Shown here: positions 12,448 through 21,229 of the stretch, piece by piece
Position numbering within the stretch: position 1 is the first letter of the stretch
How the letters are laid out: each line of letters begins with the position of its first letter
NCBI GenBank assembly: GCA_028716845.1
Contig: JAQUPF010000005.1
Location: 1 to 64,000 of the forward strand
Direction: 5' to 3'
From: a bacterium
GTDB taxonomy: Bacteria; Auribacterota; Tritonobacteria; UBA1439
DNA: 64,000 bases
Made by a program: the position numbers and the translations under genes
Notes under the pieces: model-generated
The model's input: only the letters and a program-made list of their open reading frames with translations
Databases searched by the model: none
What the model was told of the DNA's origin: nothing

Positions 12448-14643
12448 TCACCTCGCCCGGCGCAGGATGTCCCGAACGACCGACCAGCGGCGCCGCGTCC
12501 CGTAGACGTCCCTGCCGAGGACCCAGTAGTCGTACTTCTCCCGCAGCGCCCCCTCCAGCCGCTGCACCTCCAGGAAGGCGTCCGTGAAGCGGAGGAGCGA
12601 CCCGTCGCCGCCGAGGGCGACCGGGTAGGCGTGCAGGAATTTCACCCTCTCCCGCTCGCCGAAGGAGGCGACGCGGAAGAACGGGTAGAGGAGCGTCCAC
12701 GGCACGCCTTCCTCGACGGTCGTCAGGAGCGCGTCGGCCCCGCTCCTCCCCTCGAAGTAGTCACGCTCGTGGGCGAGCTCGACCGCGCGGGCCCGCGGGA
12801 AAAGCCGCGGCAGGAACTCGGCGTACGCCGTCCCCTTCAGGACGGCAATCGGGACGCCGTCCATTCCGCGCACCGCCTCCATCCCCGAGAAGGCGGCCCG
12901 CCGGTGGTCCGGCACGACGAAGGCGAGCCGGGAGGTCATGTAGGAGGAGGAGAACCGCATCCGCCGCAGCCGCTCCGGCGTCACGACGACGCCCGCCATG
13001 ATGATGTCGCAGCGGCCCTCGTCGAGCGCCGGCCCCAGGGCGTCGTAGTCCACCGGGACGAACTCCACGAGCGGCAGGCCGATGAACGAGGCGAGCTCCC
13101 GCGCCGTCTGCGCGTCGAAGCCGACGAGGTCCCCCCGCCTGTTAAAGTAGGTGAACGGGAGCGCCTCCGCGTTGTAGCCGACCCGCAGCGCCCCCCGGGC
13201 CCGGATCCGGTCGACGTCGGCGGCCCCCGCCGCCGCGCGCGGCGGACCGGGTGGAGGGGCCTCCTCGGCCGTCCGGTACACGCGCGCGGCCGCCATGCCG
13301 CCCGCCCCCCGCGGCGCCGGGATCTCCAGGCCGATCACCCGCTCCTCGCCGCGCGTCGTCGTCGCGACGAGCCGCGCGAAGCCCGCGCGGAGCCCCCCGA
13401 TCGCCCCCGCCGCGAGAAGGGCCACGGCGAGGAGGGCGAGGGCGGCGCGCCGGGGGCGCGGCCGCGCCCTGCCCGTCAGGAGGGCGACGCAGAGGGCGGT
13501 GAAGGAGAAGAGGAACATGGTCGTGAGCGCCGCGCCGAAGTGGCCGAGGATCGCCGAGGCGGAGACGTAGAGGTTGAAGGCGTCCTCCGGGAGGCGGGCG
13601 AGCCGCAGGAGGAACGGGACGGCCGCCCTCGACGAGCCGAACGAGCTCATGACCCCCGCGACGGCGCACCGGAGCTGGACGCCGAGGCGGAGCGGGGCGT
13701 CGTAGAGCCAGCCGGCGAAGAGAACGAACAGGATCGGGGCGAAATCGCCGTACGAGGGGAAGTTGTAGGCGATCGGGACGAGGATCCCGGCGTAGGCGCC
13801 CGTCCGCCGCTCCGGCATGCCGCCCCGCTCGAACAGGCCGCGGACCCCCTTCTCGATGAGCGGGAGGGCGATGAACGTCTTCTGGGCGGCGAAGGAGAGG
13901 ACGAGCGCCCCGCCGCACGAGGAGAGGACGTCCCGGTAGCGGAAGCCGGTCGCCGCGGCGACGGCGAGCGGGAGCGCCACGAAGGTGAGGAGGAGATCGA
14001 GGACGATGGTGGCGGCGCAGTAGAACTGGAGGTGGGAGAGCGTCTCGAGCGAGAGGGTGCCGGCGGCGTGCGCCGTGACGGCGAAGATCCCGAACGGGGC
14101 GATGCGCATGAGGAATCCCATGACGCGAGAGAGGGCGTCGGAGAGGACGCCGAGGACGGCGAGGAGCGCCTCCTTGTTCCCCGAGCCGATGAGTGCCGCG
14201 CCGAGGAAGATGGAGAAGAGGACGATGGCCGGCAGCACCCCGTCGGCGAGCGCCCGGAACGGGTTCGCCGGGATGAAGGTGTCCACGAGGCTCACCTCCT
14301 CGGCGGCGGCGACCTCGCCGGCGCTGAAGAGCGAGCTCGCGGGGCGCGGGGGGAAGGCGAACTGCATGGCGAGGAAAAGCACGATCCCCGCGCACCAGAG
14401 CGCAAGGAGGACGGCGGTCCCGCGCCGCGCGACCGCGCCCGCCTCCCCCCTGTGGAGGCCGCCGATCCCGCCGACGACGGAGACGACGACGTAGGGGATG
14501 ACCGCCATCTGCATGAGGCGGATGAAGGCGGTGCTGAACGGCTCGAGGACCGCGCACAGGTCGCCGAGGAAGAGGCCGGTGAGGATGCCGGCGGCGAGCG
14601 CGGCCAGCGACCGCGTCGTCCAGGTGCGTGCACCCGTTCCCAT
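12448..14643 (-). CDS. Dicarboxylate/amino acid:cation symporter (SDF family) fused to C-terminal periplasmic substrate-binding (SBP_bac_3-like) domain
   Basis: Single 739-aa ORF (14667 alternative start); N-term LGALCAVLEPFSTAFIRLMQMAVIPYVVVSVVGGIG / GLHRGEAG type SDF; C-term RIRARGALRVGYNAEALPFTYFNRRGDLVGFDAQTARELASFIG SBP. Confidence 0.85.
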   Translation of the reverse strand: MGTGARTWTTRSLAALAAGILTGLFLGDLCAVLEPFSTAFIRLMQMAVIPYVVVSVVGGIGGLHRGEAGAVARRGTAVLLALWCAGIVLFLAMQFAFPPRPASSLFSAGEVAAAEEVSLVDTFIPANPFRALADGVLPAIVLFSIFLGAALIGSGNKEALLAVLGVLSDALSRVMGFLMRIAPFGIFAVTAHAAGTLSLETLSHLQFYCAATIVLDLLLTFVALPLAVAAATGFRYRDVLSSCGGALVLSFAAQKTFIALPLIEKGVRGLFERGGMPERRTGAYAGILVPIAYNFPSYGDFAPILFVLFAGWLYDAPLRLGVQLRCAVAGVMSSFGSSRAAVPFLLRLARLPEDAFNLYVSASAILGHFGAALTTMFLFSFTALCVALLTGRARPRPRRAALALLAVALLAAGAIGGLRAGFARLVATTTRGEERVIGLEIPAPRGAGGMAAARVYRTAEEAPPPGPPRAAAGAADVDRIRARGALRVGYNAEALPFTYFNRRGDLVGFDAQTARELASFIGLPLVEFVPVDYDALGPALDEGRCDIIMAGVVVTPERLRRMRFSSSYMTSRLAFVVPDHRRAAFSGMEAVRGMDGVPIAVLKGTAYAEFLPRLFPRARAVELAHERDYFEGRSGADALLTTVEEGVPWTLLYPFFRVASFGERERVKFLHAYPVALGGDGSLLRFTDAFLEVQRLEGALREKYDYWVLGRDVYGTRRRWSVVRDILRRAR

Positions 14644-14728
14644 GCGTCCGCGCCCTCCGGGGTTCACATACTATACCACAGAATCCTCGGTGGAGATCCA
14701 GGACCGCGACGGGGGCGCCGGGCGGGCG

Positions 14729-15145
14729 TCAGGGGGAGCCGGGCCGGTCATCCTCGGCATCCGGGACGGAGAGGAGTTCGGCGACCTTCCTCCCGATCTC
14801 GTCCCGGACCGCCCTGAATCCCCCGTCGTCCAGCCCCTTCGGGTCGGGGATCTCCCACGCGATCCGCCGCGCGCCGGGCACGAACGGGCAGACGTCGGCG
14901 CAGCCCATGGAGACGGCGACGTCGAACTCCCGCACCGGCAGGTCGCCGAATCCCTTCGACCGGTGGCCGGAGATGTCGATCCCCCGCTCCCGCATGAACG
15001 CGATGGCGCGCGGGTCGACCTCCCCGGACGGCCGCGAGCCGGCGCTGAAGGCCTCGATCGCGCCCGGCGCCAGGGCGCGCGCGAACCCCTCGGCCATCTG
15101 GCTCCGGCAGGAGTTCTCGACGCAGACGAAGAGGATTCTTTTCAC
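14729..15145 (-). CDS. arsC: Arsenate reductase, thioredoxin-coupled LMW-PTPase type
   Basis: MKRILFVCVENSCRSQMAEGFARAL and DPKGLDDGGFRAVRDEI motifs. Confidence 0.93.
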   Translation of the reverse strand: MKRILFVCVENSCRSQMAEGFARALAPGAIEAFSAGSRPSGEVDPRAIAFMRERGIDISGHRSKGFGDLPVREFDVAVSMGCADVCPFVPGARRIAWEIPDPKGLDDGGFRAVRDEIGRKVAELLSVPDAEDDRPGSP

Positions 15146-15191: not shown

Positions 15192-16385
15192 TCACGGCGT
15201 CCCCTCCCCCCGCCGGAACCAGCCGGACGTCCGCGTGCAGATCCGGACGAGGCCCAGCATGACCGGCACCTCGATGAGGACGCCGACGACCGTCGCGAGC
15301 GCCGCCCCCGAGGAGAGGCCGAAGAGGAGCGTGGCCGTCGCGATGGCGACCTCGAAGTGGTTCGAGGCGCCGATCATGGCGCTCGGTGCCGCGTCCTCGT
15401 AGGAGAGCCGGATCGTCTTCGCGAGGCCGTAGGTGATCCAGAAGATGAGGTTCGTCTGGATGAAGAGGGGGATCGCGATCCAGAGGATGGTGAGCGGGCG
15501 GGCGGTGATGACCTCCCCCTTGAACGAGAAGAGGAGAATGAGGGTGACGAGGAGCGCCGTGATCGTGACCGGCGTGAGGACGTGGAGGAACCGCTCCCTG
15601 AACCATTCGATCCCCTTCGCCCGGATGATCCATCTCCGCGAGTAGTAGCCCGCGAGGAGCGGGAGCGCCACGTAGATGGCGATGGAGAGGACGAGCGCCT
15701 GCCAGGGGACGGGGATCCGGCCGACGCCGAGGAGATACCCCCCGAGCGGGCCGTAGAGGAAGAGCATGGTGAGGGAGTTGATCGCCACCATGACGAGCGT
15801 GTGGCCGTCGTTCCCGCGGGCGAGATAGCCCCAGACGAGGACCATGGCGGTGCAGGGGGCGATCCCGAGGAGGATGCAGCCGGCGAGGTAGCTCCGCCAG
15901 AGGGGCACCTCGAGCACCTTCACCCCGCCGTGCAGCACCACCCGTCCCGCCCCGTACGCGGCGCCGAGGGGGAGGTCGAGGCCGAACGGCATCTTCACGT
16001 AGTCCATCGCGTCGGCGCCGATGAGATTGATGAACAGCGTCCCCAGGAAGAAGACGGAGATGGCGTACATGGTGAACGGCTTGATCAGCCAGTTCGCGAC
16101 GAGGGTGAGGGCCACGGGCCTCGGCGTCTTCCCCGCGCTGATCACCTCGGCGAAGTCGATCTTCACCATGATCGGGTACATCATGAAGAAGAGACAGATC
16201 GCGATGGGGATCGAGACGACCGGCGCGTCGCCGACATGGATGGCGAGGCCGTCGAGGAACGTCGCCACCCCCGGCGCGACCCGCCCGAGCCCTATCCCCG
16301 CGAGGATGCACAGAACGACCCACACCGTCAGGTACTTTTCGAATACACCGAGACCGCGCCCCGCCGCCTTTCCTTCCGCACCCAT
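15192..16385 (-). CDS. acr3: ACR3 family arsenite efflux transporter
   Basis: [38 protein letters not shown], multi-TM, ACR3 motifs ([19 protein letters not shown]). Confidence 0.93.
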
Positions 16386-16398
16386 AGGAAGACCCTCC

Positions 16399-17280
16399 TT
16401 ATGCTTGCATTCCCGGCGCTGTTTCCCGCCGCCGGAACGGTTTTACCGCTCTCACCGTGATGCTCGCGACGGAACCCTGCAGGTGCCGTCTCGCATTCGG
16501 GTCCGCGCCGCACGCCTCGATGACCGCCTGCGCCGTCACGTCGTGGATCATGTCTTCGAGGGGGAAGGCCCGCTCCCGGAGCAGCTCGATCCCCCCGAAT
16601 CCCGCCGCGCGAACGGCGTCGAGATAATCCTCCCTGCGGATCGCTCCCGAAATGCATCCGATACAGCCCGATACCGAGTTCCTGATTCCCTCCGGCAACT
16701 CACTTACCAGCACGATGTCCGACACCATCAGCCTGCCGCCCGGCTTGAGTACCCGGAACGCTTCCTGAAATACCCTCCTTTTATCGGGTGAAAGGTTGAT
16801 GACGCAGTTTGAAATGATGATATCCACGGAGCGATCCTCGACGGGGAGTTTCTCGATTTCGCCGAGCCTGAACTCCACGTTCAGGAATCCCCCTTCGCGC
16901 GCGTTCCGCCGCGCCTTCTCCACCATCTCGGGCGTCATATCCACACCGATGACGCGCCCGCGCTCCCCCACCCGCCGCGCCGCGAGGAAGCAGTCGAAAC
17001 CCGCCCCCGCGCCCAGATCGAGGACCACGTCACCCTCCCCGATCGCCTCGTGGGCGAGCGGGTTCCCGCAGCCGAGGCCGAGGTTGGCTCCTTCAGGAGC
17101 CGCCCTTAATTCCTCCTCCGAATAACCTATGTTCGAGCTGATGCCCTCGGGTGTGCTGCCCGAACAACACGAAGACGAAGCGCCGCAACACGACCCCTGT
17201 CCCTTTGCCACCTTCGCGTACCCCTCCCGGACGATCTCCTTTATGCGCCTTCCATCCGGCGCCTCTTTGCCGCCTTTCAT
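16399..17280 (-). CDS. arsM: Arsenite S-adenosylmethionine methyltransferase
   Basis: SAM motif [21 protein letters not shown]; conserved Cys motifs ([23 protein letters not shown]); embedded in ars operon. Confidence 0.92.
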
Positions 17281-17379
17281 GCCATCCTCCGCTCGCCTTC
17301 CCCCGTTCGTGCCCCGGACGTCGCCGCCCTTCACCGATTGCCCGCGGCCCGGGGCATATCTTCTCCCTTGAGGCGGGCC

Positions 17380-18093
17380 TCATCCTCCCGCATGGCCCTC
17401 CTCCCTTTTCCTCTCCTCCATCCGCTTCCGCACCCACTCCACCATGGCGTGCCCCTTTTCCATCTGGGCGCGCTCCTCCTCGGTTTTCGGCTCCTTTTCG
17501 GGCTGCGTGACCCGCCAGGTGATCTTTCCGCTCAGCGGCGGCTTCCGGAGCGCCCCGGGGTCGAAGAGCCGGTGCCCGCGGAACCCCGTCGGCTCCTCCT
17601 GGTAGCAGGCCTGCACCGCCCCGCGCACGAGCTCCACGGACCCCTCGTTGAGGAAGTCCAGCAGCGTCACCTGCTCCCGGAACCGATCGATGTGCTCCAT
17701 CGGGATGTTGAAGAGGTAGGGGGTGGGAGAGTGGCTCCCGATTATTCTCTTTCGCTCATCCACGCCGTTTTTGAGGAGCGCGGCGACCGCCGCGCCCGTG
17801 AGGTGGCCGGGGGATTCCGGGCCGAGCTGGACGAGCCAGCGGATGTTCGGGTTCGCCGTGACGTTGAGGATGATCTTCTCGATGCCGATGTTCTCCGTCT
17901 GGAGGGTCCCCGCGAGCGCCGCGCCGGTCTCGACGGCGACGCGCACGAGGCGCTCGAAGTCGGGGGGCGTCTCCTCTCTTCGCCGGTTCAGGATGACGCA
18001 GACGGCGACGGGGGAGTAGTCGTTCCCGCGGAGGTAGCATCCTTCCTCGGGCGGGTAGTCCGCCGCCGGCTCCGTCTTGTAGACATTCGCCAT
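17380..18093 (-). CDS. MtrA-like (tetrahydromethanopterin S-methyltransferase subunit A family) soluble corrinoid-type protein
   Basis: GAALAGTLQTENIGIEKIILNVTANPNIRWLVQLGPESPGHLTGAAVAALLKNGVDERKRIIGSHSPTPYLFNIPMEHIDRFREQ resembles the MtrA core (TENxGIEK, NPNIR, GHxTG, NGV, IIG, NIP); no C-terminal TM. Confidence 0.85.
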   Translation of the reverse strand: MANVYKTEPAADYPPEEGCYLRGNDYSPVAVCVILNRRREETPPDFERLVRVAVETGAALAGTLQTENIGIEKIILNVTANPNIRWLVQLGPESPGHLTGAAVAALLKNGVDERKRIIGSHSPTPYLFNIPMEHIDRFREQVTLLDFLNEGSVELVRGAVQACYQEEPTGFRGHRLFDPGALRKPPLSGKITWRVTQPEKEPKTEEERAQMEKGHAMVEWVRKRMEERKREEGHAGG

Positions 18094-18110: not shown

Positions 18111-18803
18111 CTAGCAGCACCCCCGCACGATGAGGTACACCCCCCCCGCGAGGACGAGCGCGCCGCATATCCGCCTGAGGATCACGGCACCCCGCGAGCG
18201 CTCGTTCCAGTTCAGGTAGTGCTGGACCGACTCGGTGAACGTCCCGGCGAGGACGATGAGCAGGCAGTGGCCGGCGCCGAACAAGAGGAGGAGGAGCGCG
18301 CCGTAGCTGTGCGCGAACCTGAACGTCACGCCGAGCATGGGGGCCATGAAGGCGAAGGTGCACGGCCCGAGGGCGATCCCGAACAGGAGGCCCAGTATGA
18401 ACGCCGCGACCGCTCCCCGGCGCTTCATGTTCACCCGCCCCGCACCCGAGAACGGGAGGGGGAAGAGATCAAAGAGATGGAGGCCGACGACGAGGAAGAC
18501 CGCCGCGACGAACCAGTCGCCGTACGGGCCGAGGTCGCCGAGCATCCGCCCCGCGAGGGCGGTGAGCACGCCGATGAGCGCGATCGTCACGAGTATCCCG
18601 ACGGCGAAGAGCGTCGAGATGAAGAAGGCGCGCCGCGTGGAGATCCGCCCCTGCTCGTCGATGAAGCCGACGATGAGGGGGATGCTCGCGAGGTGGCAGG
18701 GGCTCAGGAGGATGCTCAGGATCCCCCACGCGAACGACGCCCCGAGCGCCGCGAGGGGGGCGCCCTCCACCGCGTGCGTCAGGATGGCGAACAGCCGTTC
18801 CAT
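18111..18803 (-). CDS. CcdA/DsbD-type thiol:disulfide transmembrane protein
   Basis: Six-TM ORF with SILLSPCHLASIPLIVGFI and FGIALGPCTFAFMAPML paired Cys-Pro motifs. Confidence 0.88.
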   Translation of the reverse strand: MERLFAILTHAVEGAPLAALGASFAWGILSILLSPCHLASIPLIVGFIDEQGRISTRRAFFISTLFAVGILVTIALIGVLTALAGRMLGDLGPYGDWFVAAVFLVVGLHLFDLFPLPFSGAGRVNMKRRGAVAAFILGLLFGIALGPCTFAFMAPMLGVTFRFAHSYGALLLLLFGAGHCLLIVLAGTFTESVQHYLNWNERSRGAVILRRICGALVLAGGVYLIVRGCC

Positions 18804-18807
18804 CGCC

Positions 18808-19242
18808 CTATCCTTCCGGCGGAGCGAGGTTCAGGCCGAGATCCCGCCACTTCCCCAGGATGTCCCCCTTCGACATGAACCCCTCGTGCCTGTACAGCTC
18901 GTTCCCGGAGGCGTCGATGAAGATCTGCGTCGGGATGATGCGGATCCGGTATCTCCTCGCCTCCTCGGGCCTGTCGCCCACGTCGATGAACTCGACATCG
19001 AAACGCCCCGCGTACTCCCGTTTCAATTCATCGAGGATGGGAGCCATCATCTTGCACGGGATGCAGAAGGAGCGGCCGAGATCGACCAGCCGGGGAATGC
19101 CCTCGCGCGGGGCGGGCGCCTCCATCGCGGATTGCCCGTCCGCCCGCTCCGGAACGGTGGATTCCTGCCCCCCGCAACCCGTCGCCAGCACAAGAAGCAT
19201 TCCCAGAGCCGTTATCGTGCATGTCGAGAATCGTCGTGCCAT
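18808..19242 (-). CDS. Thioredoxin-fold lipoprotein
   Basis: Lipobox LLVLATGC; FCIPCKMMAPILDELKREY thioredoxin CXXC; IIPTQIFID cis-Pro. Confidence 0.9.
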   Translation of the reverse strand: MARRFSTCTITALGMLLVLATGCGGQESTVPERADGQSAMEAPAPREGIPRLVDLGRSFCIPCKMMAPILDELKREYAGRFDVEFIDVGDRPEEARRYRIRIIPTQIFIDASGNELYRHEGFMSKGDILGKWRDLGLNLAPPEG

Positions 19243-19315
19243 CGGATCGCCTCCCCCTTCCCTCTTCGTCGCTTGAGGGCCCTGAGGCCCTATCGTCGCC
19301 GCGGGCGACCGCTCC

Positions 19316-19546
19316 CTAGCCGAGCAGGGACTTGAGCTCCTCCACGCCGGGCACCTTCCCCATGGTCTTGACATCGCCGTCCACGACGACCGCGGGCGTG
19401 AGCATCACGCCGTACGCCGCGATCTTCTTGAGGTCCCTCACCTCCACGATTTCCGCCTCCCTTCCGAGCGCGGAGAGGGCCGCGCGAACGTTTTCCTTCG
19501 TCCTCGCGCACTTCGGACATCCCACGCCCAGAACTTCGATCTTCAT
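19316..19546 (-). CDS. Small thioredoxin family protein (redox-active disulfide type)
   Basis: MKIEVLGVGCPKCARTKENV ... MLTPAVVVDGDVKTMGKVP. Confidence 0.9.
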   Translation of the reverse strand: MKIEVLGVGCPKCARTKENVRAALSALGREAEIVEVRDLKKIAAYGVMLTPAVVVDGDVKTMGKVPGVEELKSLLG

Positions 19547-19584
19547 CCCGTCCTCCCTTCCCGTTCCATCGCGCACCCGACGCC

Positions 19585-20760
19585 CTATTCACCGAACACC
19601 GCTCCGAAGAGAAATCCGGAGACGGTGGCCATCGCAACCACCAGGGCCACGAAGACAAGGGTCTTCCTCGTCCCGATGATGCTCCGTATCACGAGCATGT
19701 TGGGGAGCGAGAGCGCCGGCCCCGCGAGAAGGAGCGAGAGCGCCGGCCCCTTCCCCATCCCGGCGCCGATCAGCCCCTGGAGGATGGGCACCTCGGTCAA
19801 GGTGGCGAAGTACATGAGGGCCCCGGCGAACGAGGCGAAGAAGTTGGCGGAGAGCGAGTTCCCCCCGACGAGGCCCGCCACCCAGTGCGAGGGGATCATT
19901 CCCTCGCGGCCCGGCCGCCCGAGAAGGACGCCCGCGACGAGCACGCCCGCGAAGAGGAGCGGCAGGATCTGCCTGGCGAAGGTCCACGTGGCGGCGACCC
20001 ACTCCCCGAGCTCCTCCTTCCGGAACCAGGCGGCCAGCATCAGGAGAAGGGCGGCGAGCGAGAGGCCGCTCAGGATCCACTTGATCCTGAAGACGAACAT
20101 CCACGACCCCTCCTCTCCGCCGGCCGCGCCGCTCCAGTTGGCGAAGACGAGGAAGGCCACCATCGAGCCGAAGTAGAGGCCGTTCTTCCACAGGGGGCGC
20201 GATTCCCCCGCCTCCCCGCCGAAGTGCATCTGCCCGGCGGCCTTTTCCATCTCCTCCCTGCGGAAGATCAGGTGCATGAGGAGGCCGATCACGACGCTGA
20301 AGATGACGGCCCCCGCCGCGCGCGCGATGCCCAGCTCCATCCCGAGGACCCGGGCGGTCAGGATGACGGCGAGGACGTTGATGGCGGGGCCCGAGTAGAG
20401 GAAGGCGGTGGCGGGCCCGATCCCCGCCCCCCGCTTATAGATCCCGGAGAAGAGCGGAAGGACGGTGCAGGAGCAGACCGCGAGGATCGTGCCGGACACG
20501 GAGGCCACCCCGTAGGCGAGGAACTTGTTCGCCCCTGCCCCGAAGTACCGGATCACCGCGGTCTGGTTCACGAAGACCGATATGCCCCCCGCGATGAAGA
20601 AGGCGGGGACAAGGCAGAGGATGACGTGCTCCCGCGCGTACCATTGCAGGAGCAGGAGCGCCTCCTTGAGCGGGCCCCCGAATGGAAGATCCGCGAACGG
20701 GAGGAAATAGGCAAGCAGGAAGACGGCGAGGATCAGGCCGAACGCGAGCGAATTCTTCAT
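19585..20760 (-). CDS. arsP: DUF318/ArsP-type permease
   Basis: AVCSCTVLPLFSGIYKRGAGIGPATAFLYSGPAINVLAVILT; multi-TM; ars operon context. Confidence 0.85.
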   Translation of the reverse strand: MKNSLAFGLILAVFLLAYFLPFADLPFGGPLKEALLLLQWYAREHVILCLVPAFFIAGGISVFVNQTAVIRYFGAGANKFLAYGVASVSGTILAVCSCTVLPLFSGIYKRGAGIGPATAFLYSGPAINVLAVILTARVLGMELGIARAAGAVIFSVVIGLLMHLIFRREEMEKAAGQMHFGGEAGESRPLWKNGLYFGSMVAFLVFANWSGAAGGEEGSWMFVFRIKWILSGLSLAALLLMLAAWFRKEELGEWVAATWTFARQILPLLFAGVLVAGVLLGRPGREGMIPSHWVAGLVGGNSLSANFFASFAGALMYFATLTEVPILQGLIGAGMGKGPALSLLLAGPALSLPNMLVIRSIIGTRKTLVFVALVVAMATVSGFLFGAVFGE

Positions 20761-20791: not shown

Positions 20792-21157
20792 CTATTCGGC
20801 GGATCGGGAGCAAGCGGGGCGGCCGCAGATCGCCTCCCGGTTCGACATTCCCGCCTTCCGCCTGTCCCGGAGGACGACGGGATCGGCGTTCCCCCACTTT
20901 CTCATCTGCAGGAGGAGGGCGTCGATCATGCCGTCGCCGCCCCGCGCGAGCGAATAGTTCGTCCAGACGCCGTCCTTCTCGTCCCGCAGGAGGCCCGCAT
21001 CCCTGAGGATGCACAGGTGCCGCGAAACGCTCGGCTGCGCGATGCCGAGGACGGCGGTGATCTCGCAGACGCACATCGGCTTCACCTCGAGCATCTTGAG
21101 GATCCTGAGCCGGTTCCGGTCGGCGAGCGCCTTGAAGATTCTCTCCAGCGTCCTCAT
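20792..21157 (-). CDS. arsR: ArsR/SmtB family metalloregulator
   Basis: LEVKPMCVCEITAVLGIAQPSVSRHLCILRDAGLL: Cys-box plus wHTH. Confidence 0.93.
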   Translation of the reverse strand: MRTLERIFKALADRNRLRILKMLEVKPMCVCEITAVLGIAQPSVSRHLCILRDAGLLRDEKDGVWTNYSLARGGDGMIDALLLQMRKWGNADPVVLRDRRKAGMSNREAICGRPACSRSAE

Positions 21158-21186
21158 ATATAGCCATTATTGTATATCGCTATATG
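21155..21186 (-). promoter_or_regulatory. Putative ArsR operator/promoter (AT-rich inverted repeat at arsR start)
   Basis: catATATAGC ... GCTATATg inverted arms with TATACAAT-like -10 on the minus strand, in an otherwise high-GC context. Confidence 0.6.
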
Positions 21187-21229
21187 ATAGCACATGCCCG
21201 CCCGTCGTCAAGGAGGAACCATCGGAGTC

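Follow-up and report, generated by a model that had tools for sequence, protein, structure and literature searches.

MtrA is the corrinoid subunit of the Na+-pumping methyl-H4MPT:CoM methyltransferase, and the presence of an mtrA-like gene inside a bacterial arsenic (ars) operon raises the question of what such a protein might do there. The gene lies in the window analysed here, a stretch of 64,000 nucleotides from a Candidatus Auribacterota genome, within a tight nine-gene ars operon that runs on one strand in the order arsR-arsP-trx-trx-ccdA/ArsG-like-mtrA-arsM-acr3-arsC, as the first-pass annotation had correctly laid out with the mtrA-like gene between the ccdA-like gene and arsM.

The window operon and its MtrA-like protein

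The ars-type mtrA-like gene occupies 17380-18093 on the minus strand (start ATG at 18093, stop TGA ending at 17380) and encodes 237 residues, exactly the ORF that had been annotated, and the motifs TENIGIEK, NPNIR, GHLTG, NGVDERKRIIG and NIP that had been read from it are all found in the translation. Profile searches bore out the proposed MtrA-type identity: the Pfam MtrA profile (PF04208) matched residues 6-173 with E=2e-39 and 135.5 bits (cut-off 25), NCBIfam NF002126 scored 174.9 bits, above its cut-off of 161, and the sequences of MtrA structures in the PDB matched with E=1e-34. On the basis of these scores, the likeness to MtrA is no chance resemblance. The equivalog profile for the canonical Mtr-complex MtrA, TIGR01111, reached 125.6 bits, below its cut-off of 249. 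This is the single MtrA in the window genome, and its close relatives are found in records named Candidatus Auribacterota.

The surrounding genes, likewise on the minus strand, are separated by gaps of 4-46 nt, save for one ORF overlap. The operon's first gene, arsR (20792-21157), encodes a metalloregulator (HTH_5, 1e-16; NF033788 above cut-off) and is preceded on the same strand by a promoter-like match, TTGACG-16-TATCAT (21184-21211), from a sigma-70-like consensus scan that gave 2 sites versus 0.4 expected and in which a match is no evidence of function. Next come arsP (19585-20760), of the organoarsenical efflux permease family (ArsP_1, PF03773, 9e-74), whose product bears the motifs CLVPAFFIAG and LAVCSC described for cluster-1 ArsP (PMC4435449); a gene for an ArsE-type small thioredoxin-like protein (19316-19576, TIGR00412 above cut-off); a second trx gene for a thioredoxin-fold lipoprotein (18808-19374; PF00085, 2e-10; lipobox LATGC in the translation), whose start probably lies at about 19242 rather than at 19374; and a gene for an ArsG-like DsbD/CcdA transmembrane protein (18111-18803; DsbD_TM, 3e-14; NF040495 for ArsG below cut-off). 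On the other side of mtrA lie arsM (16399-17334), for an As(III) SAM methyltransferase (NF008823, 353 bits against a cut-off of 263) with LGCGN and SNCVIN motifs, the arsenite efflux gene acr3 (15192-16385; TIGR00832, 5e-112, above cut-off) and arsC (14729-15145), for an arsenate reductase of the LMW-phosphatase type (LMWPc, 8e-25; TIGR02689, 1.5e-26, below cut-off). Judged by these genes (ArsR, arsenite efflux, arsenate reductase) and their spacing, the run is a predicted arsenic resistance operon. In a comparison with the ArsEFG system for aminobenzylarsenical efflux, the ArsE-type protein scored above cut-off and the ArsG-like protein at 53 bits against a cut-off of 200, and no ArsF gene was found in the window operon; a CxxC-bearing protein is encoded between the ArsG-like gene and mtrA in two other loci (L008 and L009). 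Elsewhere in the window, a 739-aa ORF (12448-14667, minus strand) seems, from its translation alone, to combine a dicarboxylate-symporter-like half with a periplasmic solute-binding half.

The AlphaFold (AF2) model of the window MtrA (pLDDT 92.7) has a cobalamin-binding-type Rossmann domain at residues 4-173, an extension conserved in the ars type at about residues 164-200 and a charged C-terminal helix at residues 205-235. In this model the C-terminus contains no membrane helix and its final 35 residues form a charged helix, in keeping with the earlier view that a charged soluble tail replaces the membrane anchor. The structural check proposed in the first-pass annotation, which concerned superposition on MtrA and the cobalamin His ligand, also came out in its favour: the best PDB match (Foldseek) was the cobalamin-bound MtrA 5laa, with a TM of 0.94 (normalised to the target) and an rmsd of 1.6, and His97 corresponds to the ligand His84.

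According to PMC4915002, M. fervidus MtrA holds cobalt by His84 and contacts cobalamin through Thr53, Asn55, Gly57, Asn64 and Tyr18, and through the backbone of Asp17 and Lys52. In the window MtrA, His84 maps to His97, Thr53 to Thr66, Asn55 to Asn68, Gly57 to Gly70, Asn64 to Asn77 and Tyr18 to Tyr20, and E67 corresponds to E54 of methanogen MtrA. His97 is invariant in 33/33 aligned proteins (30 of class 1 and 3 of class 2, the two groups defined below), as are T66, E67, N68, G70 and N77, and at the Tyr20 position 27 of the 30 class-1 sequences have Tyr and the other 3 have Phe. The Asp17 and Lys52 positions differ, being Cys and Gln in the window MtrA and Cys/Arg and Gln across the alignment. 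C163 is the sole invariant Cys of class 1; it is common to class 2 and likewise a Cys in methanogen MtrA. By sequence, the cobalt-ligating His and most of the cobalamin pocket are kept, and together with the model this points to a putative soluble corrinoid-type protein of the MtrA family.

With methanogen MtrA (PF04208; 5laa, 5l8x, 8q3v) the ars type has in common the fold, the cobalt-ligating His and the nucleotide-tail pocket, at ~36% identity in the structural alignment. By contrast, it has neither the C-terminal membrane helix nor an MtrH partner, is bacterial and sits in ars operons, reads LQTEN and PTPYLFN where methanogen MtrA has CKTEN and GAIPYIEN, and falls in a separate clade. That methanogens and some bacteria possess cytoplasmic MtrA homologues, with a soluble MtrA domain and the His as in the ars type, was already noted in PMC4915002, in passages that leave arsenic linkage unmentioned; compared with the homologues as described there, the ars type adds the conserved extension CYQEEPTxFxGYxLxDPGAYPEPP..ITWRV and the charged C-terminal helix.

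Distribution and ars linkage of class 1

A scan of GTDB genomes for MtrA relatives yielded 62 loci in two groups, class 1 and class 2; as it used two peptide patterns drawn mainly from the ars-linked family, its proportions describe the ars-type clade and not all bacterial MtrA. Class-1 proteins are 46-88% identical to the window MtrA and form one clade (99/98) in a maximum-likelihood tree, apart from class 2 and from methanogen MtrA (the 5laa row of the tree is M. fervidus MtrA). Bacterial members are spread over about ten phyla, among them Auribacterota, Planctomycetota, Lentisphaerota, Verrucomicrobiota, Actinomycetota, Elusimicrobiota, Chloroflexota and Nitrospirota, with one Acidobacteria MAG, and archaeal members occur in Methanophagales, Methanotrichaceae, Alkanophaga, Bathyarchaeota and Asgard groups. 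A survey of 395 Planctomycetota genomes revealed 2 class-1 members, both previously found and both ars-linked, and class 1 is therefore rare and patchy. The viral contigs searched held no relative, and among the plasmids searched class 1 was absent and only class-2 relatives were found.

In 20/37 class-1 loci at least one of the core ars genes acr3, arsP, arsM and arsC is found no more than 5 kb from mtrA, with Acr3 and ArsP neighbour calls checked in part with TIGR00832 and PF03773, and in 13/37 no more than 300 bp away; the 17 loci lacking one within 5 kb owe this in some cases to contig ends, and in others the absence is real. Ars linkage holds for every one of the 11 proteins in the subclade of the window MtrA, and in the class-2 comparison set acr3 is near in 1/24 loci. 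The neighbourhood survey suggested in the first-pass annotation thus showed ars linkage recurring over many phyla. The co-occurrence with arsM and arsP anticipated there held as a linkage to ars operons generally, but the most frequent structural-gene neighbour is Acr3, followed by ArsP and ArsM.

Contamination of the MAG was considered and rejected, since mtrA recurs in four more genomes of the family, directly 5' of arsM and acr3 in G001 and G003, ~5 kb from arsM and acr3 in G002, and behind arsP on a short contig in G004. Another genome of the family (G005, 80% complete) has arsR-arsM-acr3 and is devoid of arsP, mtrA and RACo_C_ter (PF14574; RACo), which activates corrinoid proteins by reduction. 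Three Planctomycetota chromosomes, each a single contig (G099, G103 and G129), have arsR-arsP-mtrA-acr3 operons, with cluster-1 motifs in their ArsP, and no ArsM in the genome, so MtrA is more than an aid to ArsM. With several operon-bearing genomes devoid of any ArsM, the earlier idea of MtrA feeding ArsM fails as a general role, and an ArsM accessory was rejected on this ground. Ars operons of different phyla include this conserved corrinoid-type protein, whether ArsM is present or not.

At the genome level, ArsM scored above cut-off in 26/40 class-1 genomes versus 25/97 background genomes, and outside the window's family in 21/35 versus 19/91 (Fisher 4e-5). RACo was found in 24/24 class-1 genomes tested versus 39/97 background genomes, where nearly all of the 24 are ars-linked (the exception in locus linkage is the genome of L024). 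Outside the window's family RACo was found in 19/19 versus 34/91 (Fisher 1e-7), a comparison that is confounded by anaerobic lifestyle; RACo is also expected in anaerobes from general corrinoid metabolism. No CobS turned up in 8 genomes, the window genome among them, so de novo cobamide completion was rejected there and the cobamide is probably salvaged. A MetH-like protein in the window genome indicates that cobamide is used. One contig of this genome (C3, 118827-231872) encodes more than 15 proteins with B12-binding domains in 113 kb, mostly of ~500 aa.

MtrH above the family cut-off was absent from the window genome, in agreement with the earlier remark that other Mtr subunits are not visible, and from all bacterial class-1 genomes tested, occurring in archaeal ones only, so MtrH was rejected as the supplier of methyl groups. 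No methyl donor or acceptor partner was found in the window operon. In an actinobacterial MAG, a gene for an MtaA/CmuA-like URO-D methyltransferase (L029:3977-5083) lies downstream of arsR-acr3-mtrA, and its product is a candidate methyl acceptor enzyme; a conserved partner of the MtaA/CmuA type was rejected, as such a gene follows mtrA in this locus only.

Possible roles in arsenic methyl chemistry

On the basis of the conserved His and most of its pocket, the fold match and the recurrent ars linkage, a corrinoid carrier for arsenicals stands as the best hypothesis: class-1 MtrA may be a dedicated corrinoid methyl carrier that passes methyl groups to or from arsenicals, a reading to which we give a probability of just under one half (about 0.48). 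The direction and chemistry we infer as follows. MtrA would bind salvaged cobamide in the base-off/His-on state, a RACo-type reductive activator with its gene elsewhere in the genome would maintain MtrA in the active form, and the exposed corrinoid of MtrA would swap methyl groups with thiol-bound trivalent arsenicals, with no need for MtrH. In the favoured and somewhat more likely direction, cob(I)amide would take the methyl group from methylarsenite that comes either from ArsM of the same cell or from competing organisms, the freed As(III) would go to Acr3, ArsP would export methylarsenicals left undemethylated, and the methyl group would pass from the MtrA corrinoid to a thiol or pterin acceptor. 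Demethylation is favoured because Acr3 is the commonest partner, because ArsP marks exposure to methylarsenicals even where ArsM is missing and because no methyl donor system is encoded; as a claim taken alone it is rather unlikely, and if MtrA demethylates, having it share an operon with ArsM would in part be futile. Counting against the carrier reading are the lack of a partner gene for methyl donation or acceptance in the operon, the missing CobS, the 17 class-1 loci devoid of a core ars gene within 5 kb and the general expectation of RACo in anaerobes.

The reverse direction is the nearest variant of this reading. Here CH3-Co(III)-MtrA would pass its methyl group on to As(III) or MAs(III) bound by thiols, replacing ArsM or acting beside it, and ArsP would export the product, methylarsenite, as an antibiotic or a volatile species. 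Such methylation has a precedent in a known side reaction of methanogens, where methylcobalamin and MtaA methylate metalloids without ArsM (PMC6205960), and it would fit both the company of ArsP and mtrA in the ArsM-less Planctomycetota and the MtaA/CmuA-like gene of L029. We consider it unlikely, with an MtrH-type donor absent in the bacteria tested, an As(III) exporter as the commonest structural-gene neighbour, and little gain for a cell already holding ArsM.

A non-metabolic role, in which the corrinoid protein senses arsenicals, redox or the methylation state of cobamide together with ArsR, is a real rival on account of a protein of Candidatus Alkanophaga (L041:9995-10855) in which MtrA is fused to an ArsR-type winged helix (HTH_20, 2e-8). 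It is also consistent with arsR within 5 kb of mtrA in 17/37 class-1 loci and with an ArsR-family gene in 18/24 class-2 loci, overlapping by 4 nt in L058. However, ArsR is present in ars operons anyway, the window MtrA has no DNA-binding domain, and gene order varies such that mtrA often adjoins acr3 or arsM and not arsR; sensing is decidedly unlikely. Yet more doubtful is a role in protection or repair, in which arsenicals poison thiol-dependent methyl transfer and MtrA responds by shielding or recycling cobamide or by passing methyl groups to homocysteine or a different acceptor, with arsenic as no substrate. The presence of a MetH-like protein and RACo, and the proposal that methanogen MtrA donates methyl groups directly to the core methionine synthase MesA (PMC7857596), speak for it, whereas the listed neighbourhoods showed no gene for methionine synthesis, and G129, although it carries the operon, is without the PF02607 corrinoid methyltransferase domain. 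A cobamide-free metallochaperone, with the MtrA fold binding metal or metalloid directly via invariant His/Cys for efflux, would suit the heavy-metal efflux contexts of the distant class 2 (MtrA with DUF4346), with RND-type pumps and a Planococcus plasmid P-type ATPase. It is very improbable: class 1 keeps the residues for the cobamide nucleotide tail, which a metal site would not need, and its single invariant Cys (C163) is matched in methanogen MtrA.

If class-1 MtrA is indeed a corrinoid methyl carrier for arsenicals, it perhaps takes the place in anaerobes, independently of oxygen, of ArsI, which is an O2-requiring non-haem Fe dioxygenase. The likeness to this C-As lyase would be one of function only, the demethylation of methylarsenite in an ars operon, as the two are unrelated in protein and chemistry. 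Tentatively, and at somewhat less than even odds, we envisage that biological arsenic methyl chemistry has, in addition to SAM-dependent ArsM and O2-dependent ArsI, a third branch based on corrinoids, in which an MtrA-derived B12 protein, encoded in anaerobic ars operons that spread horizontally, would take methyl groups off arsenic or put them on without oxygen. Demethylation of methylated arsenic in anoxic paddy soils and sediments bears on rice straighthead disease and arsenic toxicity, and the known demethylase, ArsI, needs oxygen. The ars-type mtrA, found in anaerobes, is a concrete candidate gene for it and, if the third branch is real, might fill the gene gap in the anaerobic demethylation of methylarsenite; the B12 protein at the core of methanogenesis would then serve a second time, in metalloid resistance, having spread by horizontal transfer.

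Demethylation of methylarsenicals by methylotrophic methanogens is documented, with a corrinoid route presumed (PMC6776024, PMC10579292), and methanogens are thought to demethylate DMAs via a corrinoid protein (PMC6776024). The presumed transfer from As to a corrinoid protein is the one proposed here for the ars type, but the methanogen route is proposed to involve corrinoid proteins of the methylotrophic substrate type that feed CoM, not an ars-operon MtrA (PMC6776024, PMC10579292). ArsM operons with ArsP and Acr3, such as that of Paraclostridium EML (PMC11653729), follow the same logic as the window operon, with ArsR, ArsM, Acr3 and ArsP making and exporting methylarsenite, but no corrinoid protein is described for them. 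Within the open full-text literature searched (subscription papers and preprints being outside its scope), no title or abstract links MtrA to arsM or arsenic operons, and two surveys of ars operons leave corrinoid proteins and MtrA unmentioned. The occurrence of a corrinoid-type MtrA in ars operons of numerous unrelated anaerobic bacteria and of some archaea suggests an undescribed B12-based route for adding or removing methyl groups on arsenic.

MtrA relatives in other genomic settings

Class 2 is a second bacterial MtrA class (loci L048-L066, L068-L072 and L076). Its ArsR/SmtB-family genes were counted above, and RND-type metal pumps or DsbD proteins are often encoded in the vicinity; on Planococcus plasmids, class-2 MtrA is found beside ArsR, a cation transporter and a heavy-metal P-type ATPase. 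In one member (L058:1583-4111) a Cys-rich domain at the N-terminus is joined to MtrA and PterinBD-DUF4346 in a single protein, and the open literature searched contains no mention of DUF4346.

In the archaeal locus L041, the MtrA-HTH fusion gene is followed by two genes for thioredoxin-like proteins and a GntP permease gene. A subclade of class 1 from Elusimicrobia, Chloroflexi, Nitrospirae and Lokiarchaeota is without ars linkage in the loci seen (L026:5957-8529, L036:2199-4433, L040 and L042), and possibly acts on a different metal substrate. Three of its loci have a gene for a Cys-containing membrane or zinc-ribbon protein nearby, weakly MerT-like in L026, and in Chloroflexi and Nitrospirae the MtrA is considerably lengthened at its C-terminus, and related Cys-bearing proteins are encoded downstream.
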